DNA from: a virus
Virus record (IMG/VR): IMGVR_UViG_3300040808_000566
Location: 1 to 29,962 of that record
Length of the DNA: 29,962 nt
Strand: one strand, 5' to 3'
A program made the translations under genes and the position numbers. Positions 2,491 to 28,302 of the stretch are shown one piece after another. Positions within the stretch are counted from its first letter, which is position 1, and each line of letters begins with the position of its first letter. The notes beneath the pieces were generated by a model that did no database searches, was not told where the DNA came from, and saw only the letters and a program-made list of their open reading frames with translations.

Positions 2491-5400
2491 TTATGCTAAT
2501 CCAATGACTCTTAAATCTCTAAATCTTGGTGGGAATGCCTGATTTGTTGAGGTGCCTAACAACTTCACTGAGAAGAAGTTAAATGGCTCAAGGTTATCAA
2601 TATTAAACTCCAAATCAATATAGCTAATGTCACCTTGCTCATACCCTAGAGCATTATTTCTACTATATTGTTTATCTGGAGTTCCATCATTTTTGGTAAT
2701 ATCAATAACTTCACCAGATGCCAATCTATTTCTAAATCCAGGGAATGGATAATAAATTGGTTCTTCCTCTGCAGACTTCATAACAGCAAAGAATGCTCTA
2801 ACATCAGTATATTGATTTATATATGATTCAACAAGAACCTTTATAGAAGTTGCTGGGAACTCTAGTTGGACTGGTTTTGTTTGATATGTAAATGCGGTTG
2901 GATCTTCTATACTACTAGATGTTCTAGGATCATTAATATAATCTGTGATTGGATTATTTACTCTATTGGATACAAATGCAGCACCCAAACGATCCAGATC
3001 AATAATAGGACTGATAACTTGTTGATCTGTCGATAGATTTAAAGTGATTTCTAGAGATTTGTTTCCAGGTATTTGATCTGCAAAAGCAAGTTCATTGATT
3101 CTAGAAGCAATAACTCTAGGAGAATCAAAATAGTTATCTTCATTAATAGTTAATGGAACGGTTCCAGAATCAATGAATGATTCCTCATTTCCGCCAATGC
3201 TAGTACCAGATGTTGTTCTAACAGTAGCAGTTAGTGTTGCATCTGGAAGAACTAATGCATTTATAATGGGATGAATCATTTCATATGCAATGTTCTTAGA
3301 ACCGTAGACTCCAGGTCCACCACCACTCTTAGTTTCATTTAAGAATAGTTTTGGATATGCAACTCCAGTAGATCTATCTACTCCATTAGTTGAAGTATCT
3401 ATTTTAATATTATATCTGTCCAGATCAATTGGATTTTCTACTGTAGCATCTTGTAAGAAGTGTTCTTTATTGATTCTTCTTAAAGAAATACCATTATATT
3501 CATACTTATATACTTTTGGATTATGGTTAACAATACGAGGAATTGCTATTGATGATGTATCAATATCTCTTCCAATACCTGTTAAACTATTTCCATTAAT
3601 GCCAGTATATGAAATAATTTCATTTCCAATAGAAACATAACCAGGATTCTGGGCAGAAACTGGAATGTTTTCAAAAGTTTCAAATACTGAAATATTATCA
3701 ATATCTAACTCAATATCCTCAGTGGATGTTCCTGAAAGTGATCCTACTAATGTAGCAGGAGAAACATCAGATTCTACACCAGAAATCAATACTCTATTTT
3801 GTAGAGAATGCATTCCGTGATTTTTATGATTAACTTCAATATGCAATCCATCATAAACAGTTTCTATAGATTGAACTGTTACATCAGTATCGTCTCCACC
3901 ATTACCTAATGCATTTATAGTAGTTGTTCCAAATCCAACGACAGGATCATTACTATAGAAGTATAGAGATTTAGTAGGTGAAACATCAAAATCACCTTGG
4001 ATTTCATCCATAATGATTTGATTGACACCAAAAATATCAGTTACCGACAATACAAGGTTTCTTCCGACAGAAGAGATTCCTAGTTGAGATACTGTCAGTT
4101 CTTCGCCAATAACATATCCAGAACCACCATTTACGATAGTTGCAGCAATAGCAACACCGCCATCGATTGTAATATCAACAGTAGCATTCCTTCCATCACC
4201 TGTTAATGAAACTAAAGGAACATCTTCAAAAGTAAATGCAGGTGCTCCAAACTCAAAAGGAGTATATCCAATACCAGCATTTGCTAAAGAAAGATCTCCA
4301 GTTACAATACCAGCATTTCCAATATAAACACCACTTGCATTAGAACCTTCTTGGTATATTGTATTTCCAATCCTTAAGTTTGTGTCAGTTATAGTCGCAC
4401 CAAGAGAAACTCTCTGTGTTTTAGAATATGTTCTGAGTGGATCTTTATAGAGATTATTTGCTTGAGAAACGTCACTATTAACAAGAGTTACGCTACCTTG
4501 ATCTACAAATCTTGCATTAAAAAGAGTAAACTTAAGATCTTCATATTGACTTGGAGTCCAAGTTGATCCATTCTGAGATTTGAATAGAGATCCTAGTTCA
4601 TTTTGGGTTGTAATAGCAATCTCTTCACCATTAATATTGAATGTAGTTTCTCCCAATCTAGAAATCCAAACATAATAATCAGTAACATCAGATAGAAGAA
4701 CTACACAGTGCTCTTTATTACCTTCAAGGTAAACTGGTCCTTGGAAAGTAACTCTAGTTGCAGCTGTAGCATCATCAGAAATATTGATTTGATCTGGTAG
4801 TAACTCAACTCTGCTTAATGGATATACCTCTGTTGTGGGCAATCCAAGTTCCATGGATCTTAGTTCAACATAACATGGAAGATCTTCAGATTTTGCCTGG
4901 AAGAACAAATCCATATGAGTTACAAATACACCAGCAGCATTTGAAATAAAGAATGACTGTGCTAGTGGATCCTGGCGTTCTGGTGGTCTAGGTGGAGATA
5001 CTGTGAATGAACGACTACTTGTAGTTCTATTAGTTGGTACAAATCTTGTAGAGGTAGAAACAATCTCTCTTTCTCTACTAATAGTGGCAGATTCAATCAG
5101 AGTATTTCTTACTTGGATTGTAGTTTCCTGGGTCTGTGTAATAAATCCAGAAGAGAAGAACTGTCCAGTAGCTTCTGTAGTTTCTACGCCAAGAATAATA
5201 TCATTAGTTTGATCATTCGAAACTTTGAACGAAATAGCACCAGTAGTAAATCTTTGATTTGTGTCATCGTTTGGATTTGGTACAAATAATGATCCAATAA
5301 CAACACCAACTTGATCTGTAAATAATCTCTTATTTGAAATCGTAGCAACTGCTCCACTCGTAACACCTTCCGCTCTAGCGCCTATTAAAACGTTTCCACC

Positions 5401-10218: not shown

Positions 10219-11793
10219 TTAAAATTGCAAGATTACCTTGATATCTTCTTTTTGGTTTTGGGATCTTGTAATGGATGGTCTATTATCGACGTAGATAATG
10301 TCTCCAGAATATTTTTTAACTTCTGGATTTGATACCCCATTCTGAAATTCTTGACCCAAACTGTAGGTCCTATTATTTATTACAGTTGTTATACCAGGAT
10401 TAGATTCTGTTCCAAAATCTGTATCAATCTCTAATGAAGAAACTTCACCAATAATCAATAAACTCCCACCATCACCAATATTGGAAGTAAAGTCAACTTT
10501 ACCATATCCATATGATGGATTATAGTTTCTAGACTTGTCGAAGTTAAATCCATAAAGAGATCTATCTTGCCAATATTTAATAACTCCAGTATTTTCATTG
10601 TAAGAAACTACTCTTCCGACAGCAGTAGTACCTGTGGAAATATTTTGCGAAATAATACTATCTGGTAAATATCTACCGTCAGAAATATTTCCAATAAGCT
10701 TGATTGCGTGTAATGCACTTACCTTGTCATCATCAAGAATATCATTAGATCCAAATTTTAATGGATTTTTTACAATACCAAATCTAGCAACTTGATTTCC
10801 AAGAATAAAATCTGGATTTTGCAAATCATTTTCAATTCTACAGTAAACTAATACTCTCGTTGCACCCAACTCTTTATAAACGTTATATCCATGACCTCCT
10901 TGAGGTGGAATGATAACATCAACATCTGGTTCTTCATAACCAATAGTATCTACTGGTAAACCACCCCCAGCAAAATCTAATACTGCATACGTGTATCCAG
11001 ATCCACCATTGGTAACGATAACAGAATCTAACCTAGATTCCGAATCGACAATAACTGTAGCTTCCGCTCCAGACCCGTCACCTTTAATAGGTACTCTATT
11101 ATAGACTTGATTTGCTGGACCAATATTTGCGCCACTATCAGCGATTACTACATTTTTTATCTGTCCACTAGTAGAAGCATGAAGTTTGATTGCTGAAGAT
11201 GATTCATCTGAACCCCACTCATCTGGAAGTGGGATATAATCAATGCCATCAAACTTAATAATATCTGATGGATTAATAGTATACAAATATTTCCACAAAT
11301 AACCATCATTACTACTACCAGCAGGTTTTGGTTCTAAATCGGTAAACAGTGGTTCATCTAATGAAGGCTTACCCGAAAAGTTATTTTCGTCAGTTCCATT
11401 ATGAATACAAATATAAACTTTATAATCTTTATTAACTACATAAAAGTTTGAATAATATAAACTAGTTGCTTCAGATGGTTGTGATAAGTTTGTTCTACTT
11501 ATATCATGTCTATACATGTCATAAGTAAATCCACTTTCCCATTGAATTTTTCTAATAACCCTTTTGACATCATTTTTAGAAATCCTTTTTAAGGATGTCA
11601 TAGTGTCCCAATAATCATTCTCTTCATCAAAACAATCTTTGGGAGATGGTGGTGTTATATCCCACTCAGAGTCATAATCAGTCGCATTTGGGAGACCAAT
11701 GAATGCATAATAATAGTTTGAAGAAACTCCAATGGCATTGACAAAGTTCTCCGCATTAAGTATTCTTAGTTGATCAGTTATAATTGCTGACAT
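10219..11793 (-). CDS. gp8: Baseplate wedge protein gp8
   Basis: A 524-residue protein recognised by SAIITDQLRILNAENFVNAI at the N-terminus, the PPSPKDCFDEENDYWDTM segment, FTYDMYRHD, and SSNDGYLWKYLYTINPSDII. These are typical of cyanophage gp8. In T4, gp8 (about 334 residues) is a dimeric wedge component that binds gp10 and gp7. The cyanophage form is extended, here including a GGSGYTYAVLDFAGGG repeat near residue 262 that resembles repeats in gp14 and both giant proteins. It follows the giant structural gene after a 28-bp gap and precedes the DUF4815 gene by 6 bp. Confidence 0.93.
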   Translation of the reverse strand: MSAIITDQLRILNAENFVNAIGVSSNYYYAFIGLPNATDYDSEWDITPPSPKDCFDEENDYWDTMTSLKRISKNDVKRVIRKIQWESGFTYDMYRHDISRTNLSQPSEATSLYYSNFYVVNKDYKVYICIHNGTDENNFSGKPSLDEPLFTDLEPKPAGSSNDGYLWKYLYTINPSDIIKFDGIDYIPLPDEWGSDESSSAIKLHASTSGQIKNVVIADSGANIGPANQVYNRVPIKGDGSGAEATVIVDSESRLDSVIVTNGGSGYTYAVLDFAGGGLPVDTIGYEEPDVDVIIPPQGGHGYNVYKELGATRVLVYCRIENDLQNPDFILGNQVARFGIVKNPLKFGSNDILDDDKVSALHAIKLIGNISDGRYLPDSIISQNISTGTTAVGRVVSYNENTGVIKYWQDRSLYGFNFDKSRNYNPSYGYGKVDFTSNIGDGGSLLIIGEVSSLEIDTDFGTESNPGITTVINNRTYSLGQEFQNGVSNPEVKKYSGDIIYVDNRPSITRSQNQKEDIKVILQF

Positions 11794-11821: not shown

Positions 11822-14800
11822 TTACACGTATGATCTATAATCTAAACGATTTTTCCTGACAACAACAGGTGATGTATTTATTCCAGATAAGCGATTGCTA
11901 TTAACCGCAAAACTCATTGGTCTTCTTCTCCCTAGATTACTTATTTTACCCCACGTATAAGTTCCTGCTCTGGTAGTTATTCCTACAGGAGCATTATTTG
12001 TAGAAGAATCTACGTTTACTCTCACTCTGGTTATAAAGGTAACACCTACCCCTGGAACAGTAGATGATGTTGTAGAAACTGCTTGTACTTGGTAAACATT
12101 ATCTAAGAAACTATTACCAATAGAAACATTACCAACACCTAAAGTATCTTTAGATGTTATTCCATCACCAACATTTGTATTTTCTAGAATGAAATAATCG
12201 CCCACTTGTATTGCAGATAATCCAGTAGATGCAACTCCAACAGAAGCAACATCAGTATTTCTCAGATATGAATCTAATGGAACAAATAAATCTAAATCTA
12301 GATATGTATTTCCATTATTAATCTGAATCACATCACCAAAATCTCCTTCATAACTAACGTTTTCCATAACTTCATATGATGCTCTAGGAGACTCAATAAT
12401 GACTTGTGGTGGATTTGTTGTCGTATACCCAGATCCAGAAGAAACAACAGTTATTGAATCTACTAATCCATTAGTGATACTACTTTGTAGAACTGTTTGG
12501 TTAGTATAAAAGTTATTCTTATTTGTAAATGTTTGATTATCTGAGTTTGGTATAGATACAGATGGTGCAAACGTATATCCAAGACCACTATTACTAATAA
12601 CGACACCAGTAATAGTTCCAGCAGCAGAAACAATAGCAGTTGCAGCAGCTGAAACGATGGGTTCTTGTGACACTACTGTTATCGTTTGCTTCTTTGTTGG
12701 ATCAGTAGAATATTCTCTAAGATCATCAAAGAAAATCTTAACACCATCAACGTAAATATCTGTTGAAGTTGTATTGACACTATTAATCACTTTTGCGACT
12801 GGAGACATGTATGGCTCATAACTTGATCTAGATTTTCCAACATAACTACCATTCACTGCAATATCATGCTTTTGTTGGCAGAGAGCAATAGATCTGACAA
12901 TAGATTCGCTTTTATCTAATCCTGGACCTGGATATGCAATAGTTTCAACTGTATTTGTATTCACAATATCAGATACTTGACGCTCATTTTGTGCATATAA
13001 TGGATTATCGCTATTAATAGTAAATAGGTCACCTTCTTCGACTGATTCAACAATATCTACATTTCTAGTGTCAACTGATCCAGAACCTTTATAAAATACA
13101 ATATCTACCTTTGTTCCTATTTCTAAAGGAACTGGAAACTCGATAACGCTTCCATTTTCAAAGATATAACCTTCATCTGGAACTTGTAGAACATCATTTA
13201 CAAATACTAGAAGTGTAGATTTAACTTCAATACCAGATCCTGGTTTTGATCTAATAGTTGTTTGTTGACCATTAATAAAGATTGGGAAGAATCTTCTATT
13301 TCCGTCAATCAGGTCTTGAATAGAATCAATAGGTTGCAACTCTCCGAAATGCCATGCAGAGAAATCATCTGCATATAAACGATCCACAATAATGGTGAAG
13401 TATTCAAATGAACCATAATCCGACGTAGTTGGAATACCAGTCTCACCACCAACGGGAACTGTTAATAGGTCACGAACATTAAATCCATAACCATAGTTTC
13501 TTACCTCAAAGTTAAAAATACTAGAGTCTTGACTTACGACAAGATCTACATATGCCTCAGTTCCAAGTCCGCTAGAAGGTGCTTGATATTGAAGAGGAAT
13601 ATTCCAATATGGTTCTGGATCATCAAATATAACTTCTGGTGGATTTGATGAGGTATAACCAGTTCCTGGATTTGTAATAGCAATAGAAACTACTGACCCA
13701 TTATAAACAGTTGCAAATCCAATATATTCAATATCAGAATCTAAAGATGTTGTTACAACACCAATCTTGACATGAGTTTGGATTCCAGATCTATATCCAG
13801 AACCAGAGTTTCCAATAGAAATATTAGAAATTGATCCTGTACCAGATATTGTAGCGGTTCCTCCAGCAGAAACTAAAGGTTGATAACCAAGTCCAGCAGT
13901 AGAACCAACTGAAAGGATGATTCTGCCTCTGGGCAAACCAGATTGGTTAATGTCATAATAACTAGTGCTACTAAATCCAGTAAACTTGATTTTAGTTTCA
14001 CCGCCAACTTCCAGCAGTGAATAGTTTCCATTATTAAATGGACCATCTGGAATTTGGAAAACATTATTAACAAGAACTGCAGCATTTAGGGATGAAATGC
14101 CTGTCACATTATTGCTAAGACTTTTGATAGCAAACTCATGATCATACCCATTAAACTGATCAGATACTGTATCTAAGATAAAGTTATTGGTATATGGACC
14201 ATATTGAGACCCAGAAGAAGAACTTCTTAAGAAAACTCTACCATTAAACTTAGATCTCACATCAATACCAAAGTAATCAACTTCATCTGGTTTGTTGAGA
14301 GAGTTTTCAAATTGAATATTTCCAAAAGGCGGTTCTGGGAAATAAATGGTATTACCAACTATATTATAGTTTGCAGTTACTTTTGTTACTAGACTTCCAA
14401 CTGGATGAGTATTCCTCTTAGTACCAATAAATCCTCTTATACAATAAACAAAGTTTGGATTATCATTAAATCCAATAACAAAGATTCTCATGATTTCATC
14501 ATCAATCTGAATCAGATCTCCACCTTGGAATCCATCAACATCTTCAAACTCAAGGATAGCATTAAATGGAGTTGAATCTATTGCCAATATAGCGGTTGTT
14601 CCAGATGAAACTACTGGAGATTGAACAATATTATCTAAGCTAATCAGAGTTCTTGTATTTTGTTTTTTTGATGTAAATCTATGATCTGTAGTAATCCCCA
14701 AAGATGCAAACTCAAAGATTTTTGGATTAAATGCTAATGCATCTGATGCAGATGCTGCAACTTGAATACTTAACTCATCTACTTTAACAGCATATACCGT

Positions 14801-17800
14801 TGTGGGTAGTTTATCAGTAAGACCTATTCCTGGAACAGTGGTAGATGCAATAGAAATGGCATTATCAGTTAATCCAACATCAGAGAATCTATATGAATAA
14901 TCTAACTCTTCTCCAGTAACAAAATAATGTCCAGGTGTACTAATGATATTATTATCAATGTCAAGTTCACTTTCTTGAGTAGCATTAATATTTTTTTGGA
15001 ATAATGGTTGTTCTTTATGATACAGTTCAAATGATTTTCTGATTGAAAGCTCAGTTCCTTCATAATCGCCAAATCCAGAATCAACTCTCATGTTTCCAAG
15101 ATCAATGATTTTTTCTGGAGTTGTTATTTCATCATAGTATCCAATCTTGTACTCAAAAGTTCTAACGTCAACATCAATGTTTGGTTCTGGAGTAAAGACT
15201 ATACTACAAGTAACTCCATTAGATATTGCACCAAATGTTCCAATACCAGTATCAGTTCCACTAGAAACGATAGAAGCAACATAATCGACCTGTTTATTCC
15301 AGGTTGACATTACAACGAACTCTTCTGCAAAGTGAGTACCATTAGTTAGATCTTGTACAGAAGCAATCATATAAGTTGCATCATATCTACCGCCAAAAGA
15401 TGATAATGTAGTTGCTGTTGGTGTTGGTGATGCGGGGAAAGAAGTATATGTAGTCTCTAGTAGCGCACCATTTACTGCATCAGTTCCTATGCCAGTATTT
15501 GTTGAGGAAAATGCTGTAATAGATGCATCCACTTGGAAATCATTTGAGTTTGGTGAGTCAAATGCGCCAGTTACAATGATTTCAGATCCATCTATAGAAT
15601 ATGTGAAAGTGGCGATACCTGGGGTACTATTAGAACCACCACCAGAACTATTTAAAAATCCATATTCATTTATGTATAGATCTGTACCATCATTGGTAAT
15701 AATCAACTCTTCTGTCTGTACATATCCATTGTCAGCACCAACGTGAATAATCAACTTGTTAGTAGTATCATTCAGCGATAATCTGAAGACCTCAGATTCA
15801 CCAGGACCAATACTTGGAATCTGCTCAGAATACATGTGAACAGCATCTCCAAGAACTGATTCTGATATTGATCCAACACCAACTGTAGAAGCATCGATTT
15901 CTAAAGAAGTTACAAAAACTAAGTAGTTTGTTGTTTTATAACTGATTGGGAAGAATCTCAATAAAACTTCATTACCAGAAATCTCCGCATCAAAATCTCC
16001 AATAGTTGTCTGCGGGAATAATTTTGCATAGTCAACATTAAATACAGTTAGACCATCAGAGAGTAGTAGAACTACACCTGCTTGTCTTTCGTATGGATTA
16101 TCAATATTTTCAACAATAACAAAGTATTTTCTAAATCCAACGACTTTTTCATATACATCAATAGTTGAATATCTTGTAGATCTTACAGCCTGATTAAACT
16201 CCGAAGAAATATCATCTAGTTCTAATACTCTATTACCAACGGACTCAATATAATCTTGTAATAGTCTAGATCTCAGAATAACTTCCTTAGACTTTCTAGT
16301 CTCATTTATGATAGATGTAGTTTCTGTAACACTATCAAAGTCTTGGTAGCAATCTATATCAATGACTCGATGAATATCAGCAATACCACTAATATCTCCA
16401 GATGATTGAATAGTTTCTATTCCCACAAAAGAGTTTGGTTCTGATGGAACTAAAATATCACTAAACTTTTTAAATCCTACAGTATGGACTAAATTTGAAA
16501 CATATGGATTCCAAGTTTCATAATCAACTTCAGATTTTACAGAATAAGAGAAATATTGATAGTAATCACTATCATGTATTCTCTGCTCTGGATCATTTAA
16601 GAAACCTTTTCTTGTTGACCATCCATTTCTAACTACAGATCCAGAAGTAACTGGAAAATCTATCTCATCTGAGGTTACTTTTAATACTCTAGATCTTCTT
16701 CCAGAAACTAATCCTCTAAGAACGTCTCCAACTTTAAAATCATCTAGTGTATAAACTTTAATAATATCTCTATCATAATCAATACTCTGAATATTTCCTT
16801 TTGCACCAGAAGTTCCTACAACTGGTTCATTGCTAAAGAACTTAGTCTTTTGAGTTTCAATTTCAAAAGTTGGTAAATATTTTAATGGAACTATTCTCCC
16901 TACCGAGTTGAAAACATTAAACTTACCAGGAGATTCTCCATCTCCAAGAAGATTTTCTAGACTGTATGTAACAGTTGCTCCAATACCACCAAGGGCAGGA
17001 TCTCTATCGATAATAGTAAATGTAGTATAGTTGTAGTTTTCTGAGTTATAACCCGTACCAGTAGTTGCAATACCAACACTTACATTTTCAACTAATACTT
17101 TATCACCAATCTCAAATGGAAAATCTTGTAGGAAACTATATGTTGGAGAAAGTTCTACGGTTACATGCTTATTGACATCATTAAATGTAATGGTATTGAT
17201 TCCAATGCCATTTGAGTTGTTTATAGTAAGGATTTTTGGAGAATATTCGGATAATTTATATGTATTTTTGATAATATCAACTTTTCTTGAAGATATATCA
17301 TACTTAAACTCCAAATCTTCTACTAACTTATTCGTAAAACCATCAATAATAATGATATCTGGAGCAGTAGAATAGTTTTTACCTGGTGAGGTAACTTTAA
17401 CTTCTTTTACAGAAGATAAGTAATCTAACTCAATAATTGTGGGAGTTTTTGATGAGGGTCTAATAGTATTATCAGAATAATAATCATAACCAATATCGTC
17501 AAACTCGATACTTAATGGTAGACCAATATTATCACTTTCAACTTTTAGAATGGCACCGCTACCATTTTCTGAAACGATCTTATCTATTTTGGGGATACTC
17601 TTATATCCTTCACCTCTAGACTGAATCTCAACTTCAGCAATAGATCCTTCAACAACTGAAGATTTGATGAAATAGTTTAGAGCATTCCCTCTACCAGAAG
17701 TATATTCATATCTTTCTGGGGCATCAAACATAGGTGCCGTAAATGTGTTTGATGTTTTTGAGTTGATTTTAAATGTATTGGAAAACTTACTATCAATAAT

Positions 17801-20800
17801 GTTAATCGAGTTATTAATATATCCATCATCCGATCTATTTTCATAAACATAAAGTTCAAGATTTTCTACATTATTTCCAAATCTCTTCTTTGGAACTAGA
17901 TTGTAATAAATCTCTTTTGGTAGATTTGAACTATTTCTTAAAGTTGCTTTTGCATCACTTGAGATGCCCATAGAACCGTTATACGTGAGATCAAATGAAC
18001 GCTGTTCTGCACTTGTATAGAACTCATGGTTTAACATATGATCCCAATATAATCTAAAATCAAATGCTTCTTTTTCTCTTTCATCATCGATTGATAATGA
18101 AGAATCGGAAAGATCAAAGATAATATCTGAGTATTTTACAACTTCTAGTGGTGGATTTATTGGTAATATTGACCCAGCAAGAGATGCTGTAATATCTACA
18201 GAGTTTATACCCAAGAGAGCATCGTATTTCTGCTCTGCTAACTTGATTCTATCGGGAGTGATAGCAGACACATAATATGCCTTATCATGTTCTAATCCAG
18301 TAGATATTGCTGGATTGGATGATAGATATACTACTTTTTGTCCACTTTGATACTTATGGTTTCTAATTGTAATGAAGTTCTTTAAAGTATTTACATCAGA
18401 AGACTCAAAATCTCTTCTTCCGACGATAACAGCTCTGTTTTGTTTGTTATACTCTACTTTATAAGTTGTAGAAATACCTGATTTTACATGAAGATCAAAA
18501 CTATCTCCAACAGAAAGACCATGTGGAGTACTTGTAGTAACTAATACCCTATCATCTGAAATATCACACTCTAAAATATTTGGATATCTTGGTGTTAAAC
18601 TCTGAATCTCTGGCACAACATTGGTGAATACTAATAGTTGTGGATTTGTGCTAATTCCAGAAGATATGGTTGTCAAACCAATCGAGTTGCTATTTATTTT
18701 TACAGCATAAATCTGTTCAGCATCTGAAAGTAAGAATGCTCCATTTTCATTTTCTACAGTTATAGAAGTCCCACCTTCATTCGAATACTCCAACAAATCT
18801 CCAGTAACAAGAGGATGATTACTCATATTGATTGTTACTGTATTCAGTCCAACATCTTCCGAGGTGATAAAATATAATGGATTTTCTAGAGAGTTTGTAA
18901 AACTTGTTGTTATAAACGAATTTTGTGGACTAAAGGTAAACTTTCTTGGAACTTCAACAAATCCTGAAGCTGCTTGATGAGATGTTCCAATAGAACCATC
19001 ATATTCTCTTTGAACTAATAATCTAGACTTGTTAGGTTCTACTCTTAAAATCTTTATTTTTTCAATACCATTTTGATAAACATCATTTGGATAAATCGAA
19101 TCAAAAAAAGTTGCAACAGAAATATGAGTAGAAACTCCAGTTACTGCAGGAATATCAAGATTTTGCTTTAATGTTATTATGTTATACTTAACATCTATTT
19201 CAGTTGTTGTTAATAACTCATTATTAAATGTTAATGATAAACTTTCCCCAGTAGTATAACCATGTGGGTCTGCAGTAAATGCAGTAAATAGTTTACTATT
19301 TTTTATGATATTACATGTTTTCGATTCATTGTGAAGTAAACTGACAGATTCGATATCTACTCCTTTTACTTTACTAACCCTACCTTTTGCTTTAAAGGTG
19401 TCAATTTGCCCATCAAATACAACTCTATCTCCAACTTTATAGTTATAACCACCAGTAACAATGCCAACACTAGTTACTGATCCAAACTTTGTAGATTTTA
19501 CGATTGCGTTTTGATTTCTATACGCTTTATCATATTTTAAAAATGGATAATCAATAGTATTTGCCAGCAAACTATATGGGGCAGTATTTCTAATCAAATC
19601 TGAAGTATTTAAATCAAAGTATTCTAAAGTTGATGTTGATTTGAAGTTAAACTCTGTAGGAGAAGAAACAAATGTATCTCCAATAACATATGGGAAAACG
19701 GGTTTTCTATAAGATTTAAATAATCCATTTGCGTCAACTTGAGTGTTTATAGTACAGAAATATGCATAAACACCATTTGGATACTCTGGAGTAACACAAT
19801 ATCTTCCATTATGTTCATCTAATGTGCTATTTCCAGTAAACGTATAATCTTCAATAAAGAATCCAGCTGGAAAATCTATTAGATTTGGTCTATTTTTGTC
19901 TTTGTTTAGATCAGTTCTTAATGTATATCCTGAAGTCATCTGGACTATTCTACCACCAGTCTGTGATGAATAACCATAGGGACCATAGATTGGATTTCCG
20001 TCATATGCCCATCCAAGAATTGGTGAATGTGACAAAGAAACTGATTCGGATCCATTAATAAGTTCTAAATCTGGATTGAAAACTTCAACGCCATTCAAGA
20101 ATCTACTAGCAAGAGAAATCTCTCTAAGTTTTCTTGGTGCATAGGCATGAACATATTGAATGCCTCTTGATTTTGTTTTTCCTTCATATAAGAAAGAGTC
20201 TTCTGGCGAAATCAATCCAGTCGAAACATATCTCTCGACAAGATTTATTCTCCAAGTCTGAATATTTGCAGAAACACTAGCAGATCGTCCTCTATTGACT
20301 ACAAGTGCTTGAGTACCTTCAGATTTATATCCTATTCCAGGATTTTGGATTATAATATCAGAAATATAACCATCTTTCACGATTGGAATCAAGTTTGCAC
20401 CAACTCCACTACCAATAATAGAAATATCTGGTGTAGAATAATATTCTTTTCCTGGATCTTGGATTATTACCGAAATAATCTCACCATTTTTAATAATAGG
20501 TTTTAATCTAGCATTTCTGCCCTGTAAAATATCAATATTTGGTTGAGAAACAAAGTTTGAAACTTCAGATCCATACTTTTCACCAGTATTTTCAATAAAA
20601 ACACTATCAATTTCTCCACTAAAAATGGGTCTTATTTTAGCATTTGTATCTACATTGAGATCTTCCTGACTTAATGAAGATCTTCCGTCAATTGTGACTA
20701 CAATATCCTGATATTTGAAAGTATGGTCGCCTTCTACAAATCCATCGAAGTTAATATACTTTTTCTGCTTATAAAAAATGTCCTTTTGTGTTGAAATTCC

Positions 20801-23800
20801 TGAAATATTGCATATTCTGAAAGAATCATTGTCATTTTTTAGTACATAATAGTCTGTTCCAGATGAAAGTCCAGATACTGGAGCAATTTTTGGATTATAA
20901 GTGACTATTTCTCCACTTTTATATCCATGATCTTTGATTTCAATCAAATTTTTATATGTACTAATCCCAGATGATGAGCAAGATCTGTATTTTTTCTCAT
21001 AACTATATCCAGATTGAGAAATATTTACTCTTTTTACTCTATTTTTTCTATTTGTAGACTTTAAATTGTGTTTTCCAGTTCCAACTTGATGCAGATTGAT
21101 CGCATTTCTGTTATTTAAAGCATCAGATTGAGATTTGTGTAACTTTACATTGTAACTATCAACAATAGACACAAAATAATATGAAGATGTCGATAAACCA
21201 GCAATAGCTACTTGACCCAAAGTTTCATATTGAATAGATTCTCCATTTTTAAACTTGTGATAAGTAGAAAAACCAATACTATCATTAACAAGATCCACTT
21301 CAGAAGCACTAAAAGATGAAAAATGAACATATTTTTCAAGTTCTACTTCTGCTTTTGCTCCAGTTCCATTACCACCAGATATTGTTATCACTGGAGTTTC
21401 AATATAATCAAATCCCTTATCTAATACGTCGATTTTACTTAAATAACCTTTTACTGAAATGTTAGATACACATCCAGAACCGTTTGAATCACTAATTCTT
21501 AACTGAGGAACATTGATTACATCATAACCAGAACCTTTTGAAATAACATCTACGGATTTTATTTTACCATAAGAAATAAAATCTTTAGATTTGTAGTTTA
21601 ACAGTTCAATACCATTTCTCCAAATACCTATAGTACCCGATTTAGTAATCTTTGATGACTGATCATTAGAATTTTCATTTCCTGGATGACGAACTATTTT
21701 TCTGATGATATCTTGAGGTTCTATCTTTCTACTATCAAGATTTTTGTAAACATAATCATATGATTCAATAGTATCTTGGATAACGACACCACTAAATGAT
21801 ACTGACTGACCTTTAAGTATATTTGTTCTACTTCTATAAAGTTTGATCTGAGTTGGTGATACTTTTTCAATAAAATATATTCCTTTATCAATATCCAAAG
21901 ATTTTTGCTGATTTTCATCAATAATATTGATTACACCGCCCATTGCTTGGTGGTTCAAACATTGATAATATAAAACATCTGGGGTATCTTCTTGGACTTC
22001 CCAAACTAATACCCCATTACTTACATCATTATTTTTAATTCCATCATTGTATTGGTCACTAACTGTCCCATTAGACTCTACCTGAATCCTGAATGGGTGT
22101 TGATTCATGACATTTCTAAAGGTATACTTTTTACCTCTGATTAAAACCAAAGTCGGATTATTCTCATAAGTTCCAGTTTCATTATTAATAAACTTATAAC
22201 TTCTTACACCATTTGCATCAAGAGTATAACTTGGAACATATGAAGTAGTTCTGGGTTTGTATACTACAGCATCTCCAGTTATAAACCCATGTTTACCAAT
22301 ATTTAAAGTGTCTTCATTTTTGAAGATACCAGAAAATGCACGTATTCTTTTATTTACGTTTAACTCTTCAACTTCAAAAGATGGTCTATAAAGTGGTAAA
22401 GATTGTGAGTTTACATAAATATCACCTGTTTTTCTGTCATAATAAGTATTTTGAACATCAGCTGGATAGTTGATTATTCCATCAAAGTTTGATTTGTTTA
22501 GTCTTTTCTTTAAATCATATTTAATATTTTCATTTAGGAATACTCTACTACCTCTTACAATAACAGAAAACTGGTTGTTCCATTCAACAACAGTGCCATT
22601 ATAAGCATCAGAACTGTTAGATACTGGATCTAGAGTAATATTCTGACCGACTGATAGATCATGTTGTTCGTAAAAATAAACTCTGTAAGCAAAATCGGTG
22701 TTATCTAACAACTCAATAGATTTTACTTCATAAGTTTTAGGGATATTATAAATCCAAGAAGAAGATCTTGGATCATTTTTTATTTCAGCGCCAAGTGTTT
22801 TTATTGGCAGATAATCGTCTTTTTTTAGATTTTTTACAGATGGCAATATGGTCGTTTCAATACCATTATCAAGAACGCCTGTTACTCGTACCTTAACTTG
22901 ACCAGATGTAGTATTAACATACGAATATGCATCTAGATTAATATCAATATTTTCTTCAAAATCTTTTGATAATCCAGTGCATCCCAAAAACTGTGTAGAT
23001 GTTTTGGAAGTGTATTCTACACGGTATTCTATGTTAAAGTCATCTTTTAATACTAAAGTTCCGCTAAGAGGAAATCCAATGGTTGAATCAACATCAATAA
23101 ATGATTGATTTCTCTCTATTTTTACAGTATTTTTAGTTTTGGGATGAATAGTAAAGTTTCCATATGTAGAATCATAGTTTTCTTCAATGGAGCTATCAAT
23201 GTATAGACGATAAAAATCTTTATTATCTTTCTGCAGTTTTTCCAGTTTTGTAATAATACCTCTTGTATTTGGGATATTAAACTGGGTATCTTGATATAAT
23301 GTTCTATTTTGCAGATGGTTTGGATCACCTTCAAGAAGTTCTACAATAAGATTTTTTGTGATAGAATATCTTGAGCTGGAAGGTTCTATCAGATAGTTAC
23401 TTGGAATAACAATATCTACTGGCTTTCCATATAGTGCTTTGAATAATAGTTCAAATGAACATTCAGAACCCTTAGATCTATAAAAGTCTTTAATATTTTT
23501 TACAAAAGTTGACTCATTAATTTCATCATAAAACTCTTGATTTTCAAATCCAGGAGCAATCTGAACTTTTATTTTTCTAAAAAACTCTTTTAATAAGATA
23601 TTATTTAAGTTAGATACAACATCACCATTCTTATGCTTAGATGCCTTTGTAGATGTGAAAATCAGTTTATCCGACGTTACACTATCCTTTAGTCCTGTAA
23701 CCCCCGAGAAACCCCTTCTACACCCCGTAAACTTGGATCTGTTAATCTTACAGATGTATAGGTCAGAAGCTTCATATCCTTCAATATCTGAAGAAGGTAC

Positions 23801-24313
23801 TGGTGTAAAGTTGACTTTGATATTATTACCATCATTGTTGCCAGTTACAAGTCCTTCACCAATAAATTTGGATTCGTCTAAGTTATAAACTCTTACGTAC
23901 CAACCAATAGTGGATGTAGTATCCTCAGTTTCAGTGCTGGTAATCTCATTAAATCCAATATCAATCTTACCAACAAACTCAATAGGTTCATCTTCTACTG
24001 CTTTATCATAAAAAATAACCTCGTCATTGATCTGGATAAGACCTTGTGAGGATGGAAATCCTCTAGTAGTATCTACAAAGATATCCTTCTCGTAGTAAGA
24101 AACGTTAGCAGTTAGATTGCAAGAATCTACTAGGTTTGTCAAACTATCAATCTTAACATAATCTGCCAGATTTTGAATAAGATCTAGAGATTGTCCAGAA
24201 GTTTCTTGTGAGATATAGTATTCTTTTAAAAACTCTACAAGCAGGGGATACTCTTCCCTAACATATTCGGGAACAAGATTTTCTACAAGACTATTGAGAG
24301 ATACTTTTTCCAT
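11822..24313 (-). CDS. 4163-aa virion structural protein in the gp7 position
   Basis: A continuous 4163-residue frame between gp6 and gp8, where T4 carries gene 7 (about 1032 residues). The N-terminus (YVREEYPLLVEFLKEYYISQ, then LDLIQNLADYVKID) and a segment near residue 285-325 (FRSKGSECSFELLFKALYGK) match the start of large cyanophage baseplate-region proteins as I remember them. The rest is a mosaic: CRRGFSGVT-type modules near 90-200 and 3255-3310; a cupredoxin-like segment of about 705-800 (H739, C785, H788, M791); about eight H-G-x-x-x-G modules; more than a dozen GxGY repeats; and a YHYH-type domain of about 1395-1523 (GWAYDGNPIYGPYG from about 1434). It starts 4 bp after the gp6 stop. 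I infer a wedge component with surface-exposed decoration domains. Equivalence to gp7 is from position and the N-terminus only. Confidence 0.9.
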   Translation of the reverse strand: MEKVSLNSLVENLVPEYVREEYPLLVEFLKEYYISQETSGQSLDLIQNLADYVKIDSLTNLVDSCNLTANVSYYEKDIFVDTTRGFPSSQGLIQINDEVIFYDKAVEDEPIEFVGKIDIGFNEITSTETEDTTSTIGWYVRVYNLDESKFIGEGLVTGNNDGNNIKVNFTPVPSSDIEGYEASDLYICKINRSKFTGCRRGFSGVTGLKDSVTSDKLIFTSTKASKHKNGDVVSNLNNILLKEFFRKIKVQIAPGFENQEFYDEINESTFVKNIKDFYRSKGSECSFELLFKALYGKPVDIVIPSNYLIEPSSSRYSITKNLIVELLEGDPNHLQNRTLYQDTQFNIPNTRGIITKLEKLQKDNKDFYRLYIDSSIEENYDSTYGNFTIHPKTKNTVKIERNQSFIDVDSTIGFPLSGTLVLKDDFNIEYRVEYTSKTSTQFLGCTGLSKDFEENIDINLDAYSYVNTTSGQVKVRVTGVLDNGIETTILPSVKNLKKDDYLPIKTLGAEIKNDPRSSSWIYNIPKTYEVKSIELLDNTDFAYRVYFYEQHDLSVGQNITLDPVSNSSDAYNGTVVEWNNQFSVIVRGSRVFLNENIKYDLKKRLNKSNFDGIINYPADVQNTYYDRKTGDIYVNSQSLPLYRPSFEVEELNVNKRIRAFSGIFKNEDTLNIGKHGFITGDAVVYKPRTTSYVPSYTLDANGVRSYKFINNETGTYENNPTLVLIRGKKYTFRNVMNQHPFRIQVESNGTVSDQYNDGIKNNDVSNGVLVWEVQEDTPDVLYYQCLNHQAMGGVINIIDENQQKSLDIDKGIYFIEKVSPTQIKLYRSRTNILKGQSVSFSGVVIQDTIESYDYVYKNLDSRKIEPQDIIRKIVRHPGNENSNDQSSKITKSGTIGIWRNGIELLNYKSKDFISYGKIKSVDVISKGSGYDVINVPQLRISDSNGSGCVSNISVKGYLSKIDVLDKGFDYIETPVITISGGNGTGAKAEVELEKYVHFSSFSASEVDLVNDSIGFSTYHKFKNGESIQYETLGQVAIAGLSTSSYYFVSIVDSYNVKLHKSQSDALNNRNAINLHQVGTGKHNLKSTNRKNRVKRVNISQSGYSYEKKYRSCSSSGISTYKNLIEIKDHGYKSGEIVTYNPKIAPVSGLSSGTDYYVLKNDNDSFRICNISGISTQKDIFYKQKKYINFDGFVEGDHTFKYQDIVVTIDGRSSLSQEDLNVDTNAKIRPIFSGEIDSVFIENTGEKYGSEVSNFVSQPNIDILQGRNARLKPIIKNGEIISVIIQDPGKEYYSTPDISIIGSGVGANLIPIVKDGYISDIIIQNPGIGYKSEGTQALVVNRGRSASVSANIQTWRINLVERYVSTGLISPEDSFLYEGKTKSRGIQYVHAYAPRKLREISLASRFLNGVEVFNPDLELINGSESVSLSHSPILGWAYDGNPIYGPYGYSSQTGGRIVQMTSGYTLRTDLNKDKNRPNLIDFPAGFFIEDYTFTGNSTLDEHNGRYCVTPEYPNGVYAYFCTINTQVDANGLFKSYRKPVFPYVIGDTFVSSPTEFNFKSTSTLEYFDLNTSDLIRNTAPYSLLANTIDYPFLKYDKAYRNQNAIVKSTKFGSVTSVGIVTGGYNYKVGDRVVFDGQIDTFKAKGRVSKVKGVDIESVSLLHNESKTCNIIKNSKLFTAFTADPHGYTTGESLSLTFNNELLTTTEIDVKYNIITLKQNLDIPAVTGVSTHISVATFFDSIYPNDVYQNGIEKIKILRVEPNKSRLLVQREYDGSIGTSHQAASGFVEVPRKFTFSPQNSFITTSFTNSLENPLYFITSEDVGLNTVTINMSNHPLVTGDLLEYSNEGGTSITVENENGAFLLSDAEQIYAVKINSNSIGLTTISSGISTNPQLLVFTNVVPEIQSLTPRYPNILECDISDDRVLVTTSTPHGLSVGDSFDLHVKSGISTTYKVEYNKQNRAVIVGRRDFESSDVNTLKNFITIRNHKYQSGQKVVYLSSNPAISTGLEHDKAYYVSAITPDRIKLAEQKYDALLGINSVDITASLAGSILPINPPLEVVKYSDIIFDLSDSSLSIDDEREKEAFDFRLYWDHMLNHEFYTSAEQRSFDLTYNGSMGISSDAKATLRNSSNLPKEIYYNLVPKKRFGNNVENLELYVYENRSDDGYINNSINIIDSKFSNTFKINSKTSNTFTAPMFDAPERYEYTSGRGNALNYFIKSSVVEGSIAEVEIQSRGEGYKSIPKIDKIVSENGSGAILKVESDNIGLPLSIEFDDIGYDYYSDNTIRPSSKTPTIIELDYLSSVKEVKVTSPGKNYSTAPDIIIIDGFTNKLVEDLEFKYDISSRKVDIIKNTYKLSEYSPKILTINNSNGIGINTITFNDVNKHVTVELSPTYSFLQDFPFEIGDKVLVENVSVGIATTGTGYNSENYNYTTFTIIDRDPALGGIGATVTYSLENLLGDGESPGKFNVFNSVGRIVPLKYLPTFEIETQKTKFFSNEPVVGTSGAKGNIQSIDYDRDIIKVYTLDDFKVGDVLRGLVSGRRSRVLKVTSDEIDFPVTSGSVVRNGWSTRKGFLNDPEQRIHDSDYYQYFSYSVKSEVDYETWNPYVSNLVHTVGFKKFSDILVPSEPNSFVGIETIQSSGDISGIADIHRVIDIDCYQDFDSVTETTSIINETRKSKEVILRSRLLQDYIESVGNRVLELDDISSEFNQAVRSTRYSTIDVYEKVVGFRKYFVIVENIDNPYERQAGVVLLLSDGLTVFNVDYAKLFPQTTIGDFDAEISGNEVLLRFFPISYKTTNYLVFVTSLEIDASTVGVGSISESVLGDAVHMYSEQIPSIGPGESEVFRLSLNDTTNKLIIHVGADNGYVQTEELIITNDGTDLYINEYGFLNSSGGGSNSTPGIATFTYSIDGSEIIVTGAFDSPNSNDFQVDASITAFSSTNTGIGTDAVNGALLETTYTSFPASPTPTATTLSSFGGRYDATYMIASVQDLTNGTHFAEEFVVMSTWNKQVDYVASIVSSGTDTGIGTFGAISNGVTCSIVFTPEPNIDVDVRTFEYKIGYYDEITTPEKIIDLGNMRVDSGFGDYEGTELSIRKSFELYHKEQPLFQKNINATQESELDIDNNIISTPGHYFVTGEELDYSYRFSDVGLTDNAISIASTTVPGIGLTDKLPTTVYAVKVDELSIQVAASASDALAFNPKIFEFASLGITTDHRFTSKKQNTRTLISLDNIVQSPVVSSGTTAILAIDSTPFNAILEFEDVDGFQGGDLIQIDDEIMRIFVIGFNDNPNFVYCIRGFIGTKRNTHPVGSLVTKVTANYNIVGNTIYFPEPPFGNIQFENSLNKPDEVDYFGIDVRSKFNGRVFLRSSSSGSQYGPYTNNFILDTVSDQFNGYDHEFAIKSLSNNVTGISSLNAAVLVNNVFQIPDGPFNNGNYSLLEVGGETKIKFTGFSSTSYYDINQSGLPRGRIILSVGSTAGLGYQPLVSAGGTATISGTGSISNISIGNSGSGYRSGIQTHVKIGVVTTSLDSDIEYIGFATVYNGSVVSIAITNPGTGYTSSNPPEVIFDDPEPYWNIPLQYQAPSSGLGTEAYVDLVVSQDSSIFNFEVRNYGYGFNVRDLLTVPVGGETGIPTTSDYGSFEYFTIIVDRLYADDFSAWHFGELQPIDSIQDLIDGNRRFFPIFINGQQTTIRSKPGSGIEVKSTLLVFVNDVLQVPDEGYIFENGSVIEFPVPLEIGTKVDIVFYKGSGSVDTRNVDIVESVEEGDLFTINSDNPLYAQNERQVSDIVNTNTVETIAYPGPGLDKSESIVRSIALCQQKHDIAVNGSYVGKSRSSYEPYMSPVAKVINSVNTTSTDIYVDGVKIFFDDLREYSTDPTKKQTITVVSQEPIVSAAATAIVSAAGTITGVVISNSGLGYTFAPSVSIPNSDNQTFTNKNNFYTNQTVLQSSITNGLVDSITVVSSGSGYTTTNPPQVIIESPRASYEVMENVSYEGDFGDVIQINNGNTYLDLDLFVPLDSYLRNTDVASVGVASTGLSAIQVGDYFILENTNVGDGITSKDTLGVGNVSIGNSFLDNVYQVQAVSTTSSTVPGVGVTFITRVRVNVDSSTNNAPVGITTRAGTYTWGKISNLGRRRPMSFAVNSNRLSGINTSPVVVRKNRLDYRSYV

Positions 24314-24317
24314 ATTT

Positions 24318-26234
24318 TTAGTTTCTTATATACTGTCCGCTGGTTGAGTTTGTGTAGCTTGATGATGTTATATACGATGATCCCGAAGTATCTTCTCCAG
24401 AAGATATTGAATCTCTAATCATATTTAACACACTATTTGTAGTGTCTAACTGAAGATACAAATCTTGTAATCCAATCACATCATTTGAAACTGGAGATCC
24501 AGAGATTTCAATAATTGATGTATTAAACTTGATTTTTTCTGTGGAGGTAATAATGGTTGGATATAGAACAATCTCACCCTTCTTATAGTCTATCTTTCCA
24601 TAGTTTCTTCTTAGCACTACAGGAACGCCTCCATTCAACTTAAACAAGATTATCTCACCCATACCCCCTCTCATGGGAATATCGGTAATATAGACGGTAT
24701 CAATGTAGTTAGAGACTTTAAATCCAGAAGACCTTATATTGTAACCATCAAAGTTATTGACATGTATGCCATTACCGAAACAAATCTCATATTCACCCAA
24801 AGCATTGATAGATGCTTTTAGGTCTCTTCTCATGGAGATTTTTGTTATATTTGATGTGATAGATGTATCAGTATCATCAATAATCTTTAAAAACTTACTA
24901 TATTTAAATCTAGCACCATACTTATTTAACTCAACAGAGTTTGCATATTTTTCAATAGATTCTGCAATGTTTGATTTTAATCTATTTGCACTACCAACTT
25001 TATTGATATCATAGTAAACGCTACTATCATATTCAACATAGAGGTATTTAAGGTCAATGATTTCTGGTCGAATACCAGCAACACCATACTTACTTAAAGA
25101 ATCTTTAATATTATTTTTGACTGATATTGGTAAGATTTCTCCCTCATATGGTTTGATAGTAATAAAAACCTTACCATATTGTGGTGGATCTAACTCTTCA
25201 CCACCAAATACAGAAACTGATTCTGCTTCTGGATAAATCTGAGTGACTATAGATTCATAATCTGATGAAGTCACTGCCCTACCTTGAGCAGAATATAATC
25301 TAGGTGCAAACTTTTTAATGGAATCAATAGATTCAACGTTTCTACCACCTTGAGATGGTCCATCAGAAGATACTAAAGAAATTCCAGCATCTACAAATCT
25401 GTTATTGTTATCATAAATCTTACCAACATATTTAAATGTGTCAATATTATTGGCATTTTCGCCACCATCACTAACGATATAAGAAAGTTCTACAATATTA
25501 CTATCTTCCAGTTTCCTACCAAATACTCCATCACCAAAGATTACCTCATATCTTTGGTCTTCAATCTCTTGTAGGAAAAATACTTTAGATTCTGATCCAA
25601 TAGCACAAAAGTCCTTACAAAGACTAAAAACTTCAGTAACAGAACTTTCAGCACTTTTTCTTATGACTGCCCTAATAGTATTAGTGTCAATATTTGGATT
25701 ATCTAAAATATATCTTTGATTTGGAAGAATACTATTAACAGTAAACGTTTGTGAGACTAGACTTCCTTCTAAAATCTCAATATTATTAAAAACTGCAATC
25801 CCGTTTATAACAGGAGCAACAACATCATCTCTTAAAGAGAAAATATAGTTTTGCTTACTGAATCCAACCTGGGTTGTGCAGATGATACCAGATTTTAGCG
25901 TCAAGTAAGTTGGTGATCTGTTACCCGATGCTAGATTAACAATAAATGATATAATAGCTTTAGGACAGCTTCTAGATCTTGGTAAGTATCCAATATGCTT
26001 TGCCAGAGATACTACATTCTCTCTTAAGGTAGCACTGTCAATAAAAACTTCATTAGTTATCATATTAGCATTATATGCCGATATGTAACTGTTATATGCT
26101 AGTGCATCAACAATAGTTGACAGATTAGATCCTTCAAAATCATAATCTGTGAAGTTTGAGTTTGACCTTAGATATTGCGTTATAGTAGCTTTTATCTGAT
26201 CAAAATCTAAATTTGTGAAGTTTACTATTGCCAT
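24318..26234 (-). CDS. gp6: Baseplate wedge protein gp6
   Basis: A 638-residue protein close in length to T4 gp6 (about 660). The N-terminus (AIVNFTNLDFDQIKATITQY), the YDFEGSNLSTIVDALAYNSY stretch and the following NMITNEVFIDSATLRENVVS are diagnostic of gp6 in T4-like phages. gp6 forms the continuous ring that links the six wedges around the baseplate hub and rearranges on sheath contraction. The middle contains the J-like baseplate core (GGRNVESIDSIKKFAPR then VTSSDYESI), also seen in Mu gp47/P2 gpJ-type proteins. Its ATG directly follows the gp25 stop (TAAATG), so the two are translationally coupled. The C-terminus is Ser/Thr/Gly-rich. Confidence 0.95.
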   Translation of the reverse strand: MAIVNFTNLDFDQIKATITQYLRSNSNFTDYDFEGSNLSTIVDALAYNSYISAYNANMITNEVFIDSATLRENVVSLAKHIGYLPRSRSCPKAIISFIVNLASGNRSPTYLTLKSGIICTTQVGFSKQNYIFSLRDDVVAPVINGIAVFNNIEILEGSLVSQTFTVNSILPNQRYILDNPNIDTNTIRAVIRKSAESSVTEVFSLCKDFCAIGSESKVFFLQEIEDQRYEVIFGDGVFGRKLEDSNIVELSYIVSDGGENANNIDTFKYVGKIYDNNNRFVDAGISLVSSDGPSQGGRNVESIDSIKKFAPRLYSAQGRAVTSSDYESIVTQIYPEAESVSVFGGEELDPPQYGKVFITIKPYEGEILPISVKNNIKDSLSKYGVAGIRPEIIDLKYLYVEYDSSVYYDINKVGSANRLKSNIAESIEKYANSVELNKYGARFKYSKFLKIIDDTDTSITSNITKISMRRDLKASINALGEYEICFGNGIHVNNFDGYNIRSSGFKVSNYIDTVYITDIPMRGGMGEIILFKLNGGVPVVLRRNYGKIDYKKGEIVLYPTIITSTEKIKFNTSIIEISGSPVSNDVIGLQDLYLQLDTTNSVLNMIRDSISSGEDTSGSSYITSSSYTNSTSGQYIRN

Positions 26235-26636
26235 TTATCTAGTAGGCTGCAGTGCGAACGATAGTTGTTGTGGTAAAGCATCTATACCAATAATAAAATA
26301 CTTAATAGTAATATTAAATTCGCTATTATCATAGTCTGGTGTAACAATAACAGTATCAAGTTCTACTCTTGGTTCATAGTTTTCAATAGAATTTGTTATT
26401 TGATCCTTGATTAGTGCTGCAGTAGCAAAATCTAGGTTATCAAATAAAAGTTCTGATACCCTAGAACCAAATCTTGGATTAAATGGTTTTTCTTCGGGGG
26501 TAGTCATTACAATATTTCGAATAGAACGGGATATTGCGGTCTCATTTTTGATTGCAATAAGGTCCCTATTCAGTGGGTTAAACTGAAAACTTGCACTAAT
26601 ATCCTTAAAACCCGCTGATACCCGTTCTAATGGCAT
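26235..26636 (-). CDS. gp25: Baseplate wedge protein gp25 (sheath initiator)
   Basis: A 133-residue protein, essentially the length of T4 gp25 (132). It has the family's conserved EPR motif (E88-P89-R90, within ENYEPRVELDTV), the NPRFGSRVSELLFDN segment before it, and the C-terminal beta strand. gp25 sits in the inner wedge with gp6 and gp53, and nucleates assembly of the contractile sheath through a handshake with sheath subunits. It opens the tightly packed structural operon. A GATAAATAA motif about 22 bp upstream may be its late promoter. No clear Shine-Dalgarno sequence precedes the ATG. Confidence 0.95.
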   Translation of the reverse strand: MPLERVSAGFKDISASFQFNPLNRDLIAIKNETAISRSIRNIVMTTPEEKPFNPRFGSRVSELLFDNLDFATAALIKDQITNSIENYEPRVELDTVIVTPDYDNSEFNITIKYFIIGIDALPQQLSFALQPTR

Positions 26637-27374: not shown

Positions 27375-27545
27375 TCAGTTAATCTCCAGTTCGATTTTGT
27401 TTGGATCGTATGCATTGTTATCATAAAACTGAGATGCCATTTCGTCAAGCATCTCAGTTGTTTCATCGTAAGTTAAATCTTTATAAAGGATCTTTCCATC
27501 ATAATAGATTGTAACCCTTGGATCAGATGACTCGGGTTTTTTCAT
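27375..27545 (-). CDS. Small acidic protein overlapping the glycosyltransferase end
   Basis: A 56-residue protein starting MKKPESSDPRVTIYYDGKIL and ending DPNKIELEIN. The first 20 or so residues suggest a beta hairpin (RVTIYYDGKILYKDL), followed by an acidic helix (TYDETTEMLDEMASQFYD). Its ATG lies 23 bp inside the glycosyltransferase gene in another frame, and its TGA is 2 bp before the next start, so it is part of the same transcript. No family recognised. Short length lowers certainty, but the overlap on both sides and sensible composition support it. Confidence 0.7.
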   Translation of the reverse strand: MKKPESSDPRVTIYYDGKILYKDLTYDETTEMLDEMASQFYDNNAYDPNKIELEIN

Positions 27546-28302
27546 GTCCTACACGAATACGTGGATCACACCAGATTTCAAATCCTGCTTCAATAGCATC
27601 GAGACAGAATGACACATCCTCTCCACACATGTCTTGTACTGCACCAGACTCAAAAATTTGCATCTTAGGTGCAAACCATGGATACTTCATATCCTCATGC
27701 TCAAATACACCATTCTTAATCATAACCCATCCGAATCCTGTATAATCAACAGTGAATGGCTTACGACGCTTGCTGATACCATCAACCATTTCATGATTCA
27801 TGACACCACCATTACTACGGAAATCATCCTCCTCTAACCAATGTGCTACTGATGTAGTACGACCATCTTCTGTAGAATACCAACCAGCAACAATCTCTTT
27901 CTCTTCCCCTTCTGCTGGTACTGCTAGATCACATAGTTGCCAAAACTTTTGAGTGTTGAAAACAATGTCACTATCAATCCATAGTTGATAATCATACTGT
28001 AGTTTTCCATCCCAGGGAATCTGATCAGGTCCACGTAGTACATTTGCACCAAGACACTTACAACGTGCAAAGTTGACCATCGATGAGTAATCTTGTGAAA
28101 TCTGAATACTCATTCCGTTTTGTACTAAGTCAAATGCTAACTGTACAAATGCTTTTAGAAATGTAAATGAACATCCCCTTCCTGGTAGACAGAATACAAT
28201 GCTCTTGCCTCGCATCCTCTCTTTGATTGCTTCATAATCCCAGTCCTCAACTGGTGCGCCCGCTGTGGGGGTTTTTGCTTTTACTGTGAATCCTTTTGCC
28301 AT
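27523..28302 (-). CDS. GT-A-like glycosyltransferase (family 2-like)
   Basis: A 259-residue soluble protein with the layout of a GT-A fold enzyme. An N-terminal nucleotide-binding strand and loop (SIVFCLPGRGCSFTFLKAFV, residues 34-53) leads to the DxD-type motif LWIDSDIVF (D110, D112), expected to hold the metal and sugar nucleotide. Then come YTGFGWVMIKNGVFE (187-201), the GED acid segment (227-229, likely catalytic base region), and a terminal DPRIRVGHEK with H253. It would move a sugar from a nucleotide sugar to an unknown acceptor, such as a virion protein, phage DNA base or host surface glycan. It has no membrane segment. A GATAAATAA motif 37 bp upstream may be a late promoter, suggesting expression during assembly. 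Family assignment is by motif only. Confidence 0.75.
   Translation of the reverse strand: MAKGFTVKAKTPTAGAPVEDWDYEAIKERMRGKSIVFCLPGRGCSFTFLKAFVQLAFDLVQNGMSIQISQDYSSMVNFARCKCLGANVLRGPDQIPWDGKLQYDYQLWIDSDIVFNTQKFWQLCDLAVPAEGEEKEIVAGWYSTEDGRTTSVAHWLEEDDFRSNGGVMNHEMVDGISKRRKPFTVDYTGFGWVMIKNGVFEHEDMKYPWFAPKMQIFESGAVQDMCGEDVSFCLDAIEAGFEIWCDPRIRVGHEKTRVI

Follow-up and report, generated by a model that had tools for sequence, protein, structure and literature searches.

What does a domain that carries the complete ligand set of a blue-copper protein do in the baseplate of a virus? This question is raised by the IMG/VR record IMGVR_UViG_3300040808_000566, a virus record of 29,962 bases, of which positions 1-29,962 were analysed and are referred to as the window. 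Within a 4163-aa protein of a baseplate region, a sequence-only reading had noticed a small cupredoxin-like stretch with H739, C785, H788 and M791 as potential ligands. The positions of the relevant features are compiled in Table 1.

The protein that carries the domain matched phrog_2885 (baseplate wedge subunit) with a reported E = 0, and it aligned with gp7 of S-SM2, which is annotated as "baseplate wedge initiator", with an identity of 34-44% in the segments aa 2-126, 186-685 and 811-1299. Its gene is located between the genes for gp6 and a gp8-type protein, and this position, together with the orthology to an annotated gp7, identifies the carrier as a T4 gp7-type baseplate wedge protein. 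The best relatives of gp6 are found in cyanophages (P-TIM68, 54%), and the window DNA is that of a marine T4-like phage. Also on the minus strand, a 2573-aa protein of phrog_358 (function not assigned; window 2491-10212) adjoins the gp8-type gene, and a 259-aa protein of phrog_1574 (window 27523-28302) is weakly similar to the glycosyltransferase family phrog_34859 (3e-6).

Table 1 Features of the window that relate to the predicted cupredoxin and its carrier protein.
Feature	Window coordinates	Strand	Evidence
gp8-type baseplate wedge protein	10219..11793	-	PF09215 2e-14, phrog_438
gp7-type baseplate wedge protein, 4163 aa, cupredoxin carrier	11822..24313	-	phrog_2885, S-SM2 gp7 alignment, gene order
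YHYH domain (PF14240) of the 4163-aa protein, aa 1427-1524, second predicted metal-site domain	19742..20035	-	Pfam 5.3e-24
Right edge of host module, GIYFIEKVSPTQIKL, aa 811-825	21839..21883	-	conserved in gp7 orthologues
Inserted stretch, aa 686-810 (125 aa)	21884..22258	-	loop of 8-44 aa in 78/80 gp7 orthologues
Predicted cupredoxin domain, aa 695-799 of the 4163-aa protein	21917..22231	-	AlphaFold2, Foldseek, type 1 copper profile match
M791 codon, predicted axial copper ligand	21941..21943	-	invariant in phage copies; aligned with amicyanin Met
H788 codon, predicted copper ligand	21950..21952	-	invariant; aligned with amicyanin ligand His
C785 codon, predicted copper ligand, sole Cys in domain	21959..21961	-	invariant; aligned with amicyanin Cys
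H739 codon, first predicted copper ligand	22097..22099	-	invariant; aligned with amicyanin His
Left edge of host module, HGFITGDAVVY, aa 675-685	22259..22291	-	conserved in gp7 orthologues
gp6 baseplate wedge protein	24318..26234	-	phrog_219 and Pfam gp6 domains
gp25 baseplate wedge protein, adjoins gp6	26235..26636	-	PF04965, 2e-16

In the minus-strand frame, the strings TLVLIRGKKYTFRN (aa 721-734), QHPFRI (aa 738-743) and LYYQCLNHQAMGG (aa 781-793) as well as the four potential ligands are located exactly where the sequence-only reading had placed them. Its range of about 705-800 was slightly too short, the domain extending over aa 695-799. A motif of the form C-x(2-5)-H-x(1-6)-M occurs a single time in the whole 4163-aa protein.

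Structure prediction with AlphaFold2, based on 41 natural sequences (IMG/VR loci and the window copy), resulted in an all-beta model with a pLDDT of 95.8 and a pTM of 0.86. When this model was compared with the PDB using Foldseek, the best 50 matches were all type 1 copper or multicopper proteins, which include rusticyanin, copper nitrite reductase, pseudoazurin (among these a variant engineered to have the amicyanin loop), plastocyanin, amicyanin, other cupredoxins, CueO and laccases. E-values started at 2.7e-4, while the TM-scores to known cupredoxins were moderate, mostly 0.45-0.58, and the rmsd was high. The model and the best 50 matches place the domain in the cupredoxin superfamily of Greek-key beta-sandwiches, and we conclude that aa 695-799 are, as judged by the predicted structure, a cupredoxin that is built like a blue-copper protein. 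The Foldseek neighbours of the domain also include "Beta-sandwich proteins" of Pithovirus and Marseillevirus (BFVD A0A481Z6J5, A0A481Z7Q7, A0A481YWX9 and A0A481YVH3).

At the sequence level, the relationship is visible to profiles alone, as phmmer searches of the PDB with a single sequence found no cupredoxin. A profile built only from 18 phage sequences matched nitrite reductase (2.1e-4), amicyanin (2.9e-4) and plastocyanin (3.4e-4); its top amicyanin matches were loop variants, with the wild type 1aac at 0.0011. In a profile widened with bacterial members, all four ligand columns line up with the ligands of amicyanin, which, together with their invariance in the family, puts the His, Cys, His and Met of a type 1 copper site at the right places in the alignment. 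We base the claim of sequence homology on profiles A1 and A8 and not on A4, which is deeper but narrower and whose PDB matches were weak (0.2). Existing family models were approached rather than reached: scans of single sequences with NCBIfam gave weak matches to amicyanin, halocyanin, plastocyanin and rusticyanin, those to the amicyanin model TIGR02657 involving 9 of the 18 phage members (best E 0.0079), all below the cut-off, with no match for the window copy. PF00127 (Copper-bind) was weakly matched by five of the 18 (best 0.0011), L069 scoring 17.6 bits against a cut-off of 21.2, and the window copy reached 23.4 of the 27 bits demanded by PF25489 (At5g54830-like domain), a cut-off that the bacterial relatives L109, L120 and L125 passed, with L125 spanning nearly the whole profile. 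A distant homology of the domain to type 1 copper proteins is thus supported by profile and predicted fold, which agree. The spacing C-x2-H-x2-M of the window copy, which had been taken as a departure from the usual one, turned out to be the natural loop of amicyanin (C-T-x-H-P-F-M, aligned column by column). The copy in a baseplate wedge subunit of the phage S-SKS1 (L009) has two additional residues in this loop (C-x4-H-x2-M), which indicates that the loop differs in length between copies, as is the case in known cupredoxins.

We then consider how strictly the potential ligands are maintained. An alignment of 31 diverse sequences from phages and bacteria, whose identity to the window copy is 26-68%, contains only six invariant columns (H45, G64, Y89, C91, H94 and M97 in domain numbering), four of which are the ligands; by our own arithmetic, the probability that four named columns all fall within six invariant ones out of 105 by random placement is about 3e-6. 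Free variation of the ligands among homologues, which had been named as an argument against a copper site, is therefore not what the family shows. The first His was present in 81 of 81 viral loci and Cys, second His and Met in 80 of 80 each (one locus is cut off), and the 23 loci from bacterial genome assemblies had H, C and H throughout and Met in 22 cases, where the counts for the first His and the Cys are biased, since the patterns used to collect the loci contain one or the other, and those for the second His and the Met are unbiased. These patterns were derived from an alignment narrower than that of all 18 phage members, which are too diverse for this purpose. GenBank copies chosen by overall similarity keep all four ligands, the apparent exception L018 has its His past a long insertion, and even very divergent second copies possess the full set in nearly every case, L131 being without the Met.

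As a non-circular test, the ligand columns of the profile were masked to X, and 17 phage records were searched in 40 stretches of 20 kb each. This resulted in 26 copies with H, C, H and M, four copies with none of them and otherwise fragments; because many of the seeds stem from the same phages, the search tests the ligands and not the number of copies. The four copies without ligands, in S-CAM22 (L156), S-SSM5 (L150), P-SSM4 (L154) and MS29 (L167), keep the rest of the profile. The ligands are thus kept or lost together, as expected of one metal site, and the few copies without the site that still keep the domain indicate that the fold also has a metal-free use. A single Cys was found in 77 of the 81 viral and in all 23 bacterial-assembly domains, so that an intradomain disulphide can be discarded for those 77. 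For the gp7 copy, dN/dS was 0.055 between the window and L003 and 0.18 between the window and L005, the latter with dS near saturation. As far as these sequence comparisons go, the gp7 copy is under strong purifying selection, and the ratios, read with the same reservation for L005, argue against a decaying site. Of the two options once offered for the window copy, metal-binding or formerly metal-binding, the second is unlikely.

The site at which the domain resides was compared in 80 IMG/VR orthologues of gp7, for whose collection the sequence adjoining the domain on its right side was used. The gap between HGFxTGDxVxY and GIYFIKKV comprises 8-44 aa in 78 of them and 125 aa including the cupredoxin in the other two, both of which belong to the lineage of the window, and the site is likewise empty in S-SM2, B23 and AG-345-E15. 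Judging from these alignments, the cupredoxin is a lineage-specific, clean insertion into a variable loop of gp7, a location that suggests a surface position of the domain.

The same domain is found in other tail proteins. Using tblastn, it was detected in 339 of 50,697 public phage records, 332 of which are named Synechococcus phage, cyanophage or Prochlorococcus phage. The window domain is matched at 1e-23 by phrog_677 (cyanophage gp9, baseplate wedge tail fibre connector), and in many Kyanoviridae gp9 has a relative of the window cupredoxin as its C-terminal domain. In gp9 of T4, no such domain was found. P-SSM2 has four copies and bears a relative within its "proximal tail fibre", while in the podovirus P-GSP1 the gene next to that of the tail fibre encodes a protein with the domain close to its start; partner domains in the relatives include collagen, collar, pectate-lyase-like and S74 chaperone domains. 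A tail location of the relatives is shown by their annotations, and a modular transfer of the domain is shown as well. With a phrog_677 match of this strength, 339 phage records and profile matches to copper proteins, a chance motif is ruled out. As far as the literature that we searched goes, a metal domain is indeed an unusual part of a phage tail, but the domain is common in cyanophage tails.

Among the bacterial relatives, those of Gallionellaceae (L109) and Marinifilum have, as read by eye, an apparent signal peptide and a lipobox, respectively, and some bacterial relatives look secreted on this basis. In the Gallionellaceae locus, two adjacent genes (2782-4104 and 4386-5705) each encode a protein of some 440 aa in which an apparent signal peptide is combined with a cupredoxin and a helical tail; L110, on a different contig, is a third copy and has Ala in place of the Met ligand. 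Three of the loci from bacterial assemblies (L112, L116 and L124) look like phage contigs or prophages.

The 4163-aa protein additionally contains a YHYH domain, a type of domain for which a zinc site has been predicted (PMC7824862). In some Kyanoviridae, the protein following gp9 has a cupredoxin nested in its YHYH domain (L016, 1819-3306; L013, 3318-6341). The nested copy has intact ligands in ACG-2014d and has lost them in S-CAM22, and the other three copies without ligands (S-SSM5, P-SSM4 and MS29) are located at similar residue numbers; in S-CAM22, the nested one is directly preceded by another cupredoxin, which is intact. The two predicted metal-site domains are recurrently combined.

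The domain is best read as a mobile, probably surface-exposed and putatively copper-binding accessory domain of marine phage tails. We consider it probable that a whole cupredoxin with an intact type 1 site was inserted into gp7 and that this mobile tail domain is copper-loaded and acts on the outside of the tail. Its occupancy by copper, its exposure and its role are what we infer here, and bound copper would best explain the lone Cys together with the invariant Met; the wide occurrence of such domains on cyanophage tails suggests that these virus particles carry copper. In the proposed sequence of events, the cupredoxin would have entered the variable gp7 loop whole, with its type 1 copper site intact, as one copy of an accessory domain that moves among the tails of marine phages, mainly cyanophages (gp9, proximal fibres, podovirus fibres). 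Virions would be assembled with an empty domain in the copper-poor cytoplasm and would obtain one copper, with the host envelope, the lysate or seawater as its source; this metal would lock the loops that provide His, Cys, His and Met. The copper-loaded domain would then act on the tail exterior, most likely in host-surface contact during adsorption, and might secondarily stiffen the part that carries it. A more far-reaching proposal, that the tails of virions of cyanophages and related marine phages bear functional type 1 sites loaded with copper and that these virions use the copper, through its redox state or a metal-locked surface, in adsorption or baseplate triggering, is put forward tentatively and we ourselves find it rather doubtful.

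The copper could alternatively cycle between Cu(I) and Cu(II) and serve electron transfer or a switch at the host envelope, for example as a trigger of the baseplate. The neighbours of the domain in Foldseek and profile searches are electron-transfer proteins and, to our knowledge, type 1 sites of His2-Cys-Met composition are electron-transfer sites in all characterised relatives. We nevertheless regard redox activity as unlikely, since the positions surrounding the exposed ligand His are free to vary and leave no obvious conserved docking face, and since the domain occurs in many unrelated tail proteins and places, with a few lineages that lost the site and kept the domain. The variety of carriers and the variable residues by the exposed His favour a general accessory role, either host-surface contact or a metal-stiffened decoration, over that of a redox partner or trigger. 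A pure beta-sandwich decoration in the manner of Ig-like domains, for whose work the metal site would be unimportant, is in keeping with the modular and variable placement and with the retained fold of the metal-less copies nested in YHYH domains; it is improbable, as conservation in the family is highest at the four ligands, which are kept or lost together, and the window copy is under strong purifying selection. It is very improbable that zinc or iron is bound instead as a structural metal: the cytoplasm in which virions are formed offers little free copper and isolated cupredoxins can bind zinc in vitro, but Met is rare in structural zinc sites and a His2-Cys-Met set, with Met in 80 of 80 viral copies, is a copper signature. 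Equally little probability is given to tail copper as a lure recognised by a metal-uptake receptor of the host, as proposed for iron in the Trojan horse hypothesis, to which the iron at the tip of the T4 fibre and the HxH motifs of marine phage fibres gave rise (PMC11705849), because a type 1 copper would be buried behind protein ligands and gp7 and gp9 are parts of the baseplate and not fibre tips, even though the domain also occurs on fibres and on the fibre connector. A copper-dependent attachment that resembles the use of iron in phage fibres (PMC11705849) is possible but weaker than the accessory role favoured above.

Cyanophages belong to the most abundant viruses, and many domains on their tails are without known function. 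If their connector and wedge proteins carry copper sites, a large set of such domains obtains a fold and a testable set of residues, and the natural copies without ligands represent ready-made metal-less controls. A metal cofactor, perhaps with redox chemistry, would then enter phage adsorption, and the debate on the iron "Trojan horse" would gain a copper counterpart that is directly measurable by metal analysis of virions. Should the more far-reaching proposal hold, these would be, with respect to the literature searched, the first virions known with a blue-copper site in use, and they would contribute colloidal copper to the sea in a measurable amount. The openly licensed literature contained no description that links cupredoxins, blue copper or copper binding to a phage tail, tail fibre, virion or cyanophage, and the PHROG and GenBank names met for the relatives gave no hint of copper. 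The fold and the type of site are already known; new, by the openly licensed literature, is the link of the cupredoxin to phage tails.

Among known systems, amicyanin (TIGR02657) shares the cupredoxin fold, the C-x2-H-x2-M loop, a Gly two residues past the Met in its consensus and four aligned ligand columns, but it is a soluble periplasmic electron carrier for methylamine dehydrogenase and has Asn after the first His, where the phage domain has Pro. Plastocyanin, pseudoazurin and rusticyanin, the best PDB matches by fold and profile, agree in fold and ligand types, whereas their loop from Cys to Met is longer and they are independent electron carriers and not parts of virions. PF25489 covers the same domain, although the family is named for a plant protein and a phage role is absent from the literature searched. 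Cyanophages are known to possess a plastocyanin gene, petE (PMC3037559), so that a copper protein is familiar from the same kind of phages; petE is, however, a small gene of its own to which a role in host photosynthesis is ascribed, and its different ligand loop and gene rule out that the tail domain is a copy of it. The iron-binding HxH fibres of T4 and marine phages (PMC11705849) are likewise metal-binding tail modules, but differ from the tail cupredoxin in metal, fold and ligands. A further known relative is the C-terminal domain of cyanophage gp9 (phrog_677), which the literature searched does not describe as a copper domain: it is the same domain with the same ligands at 33-52% identity and part of the virion tail, and differs in being placed at the C-terminus of gp9 and not inserted in gp7.
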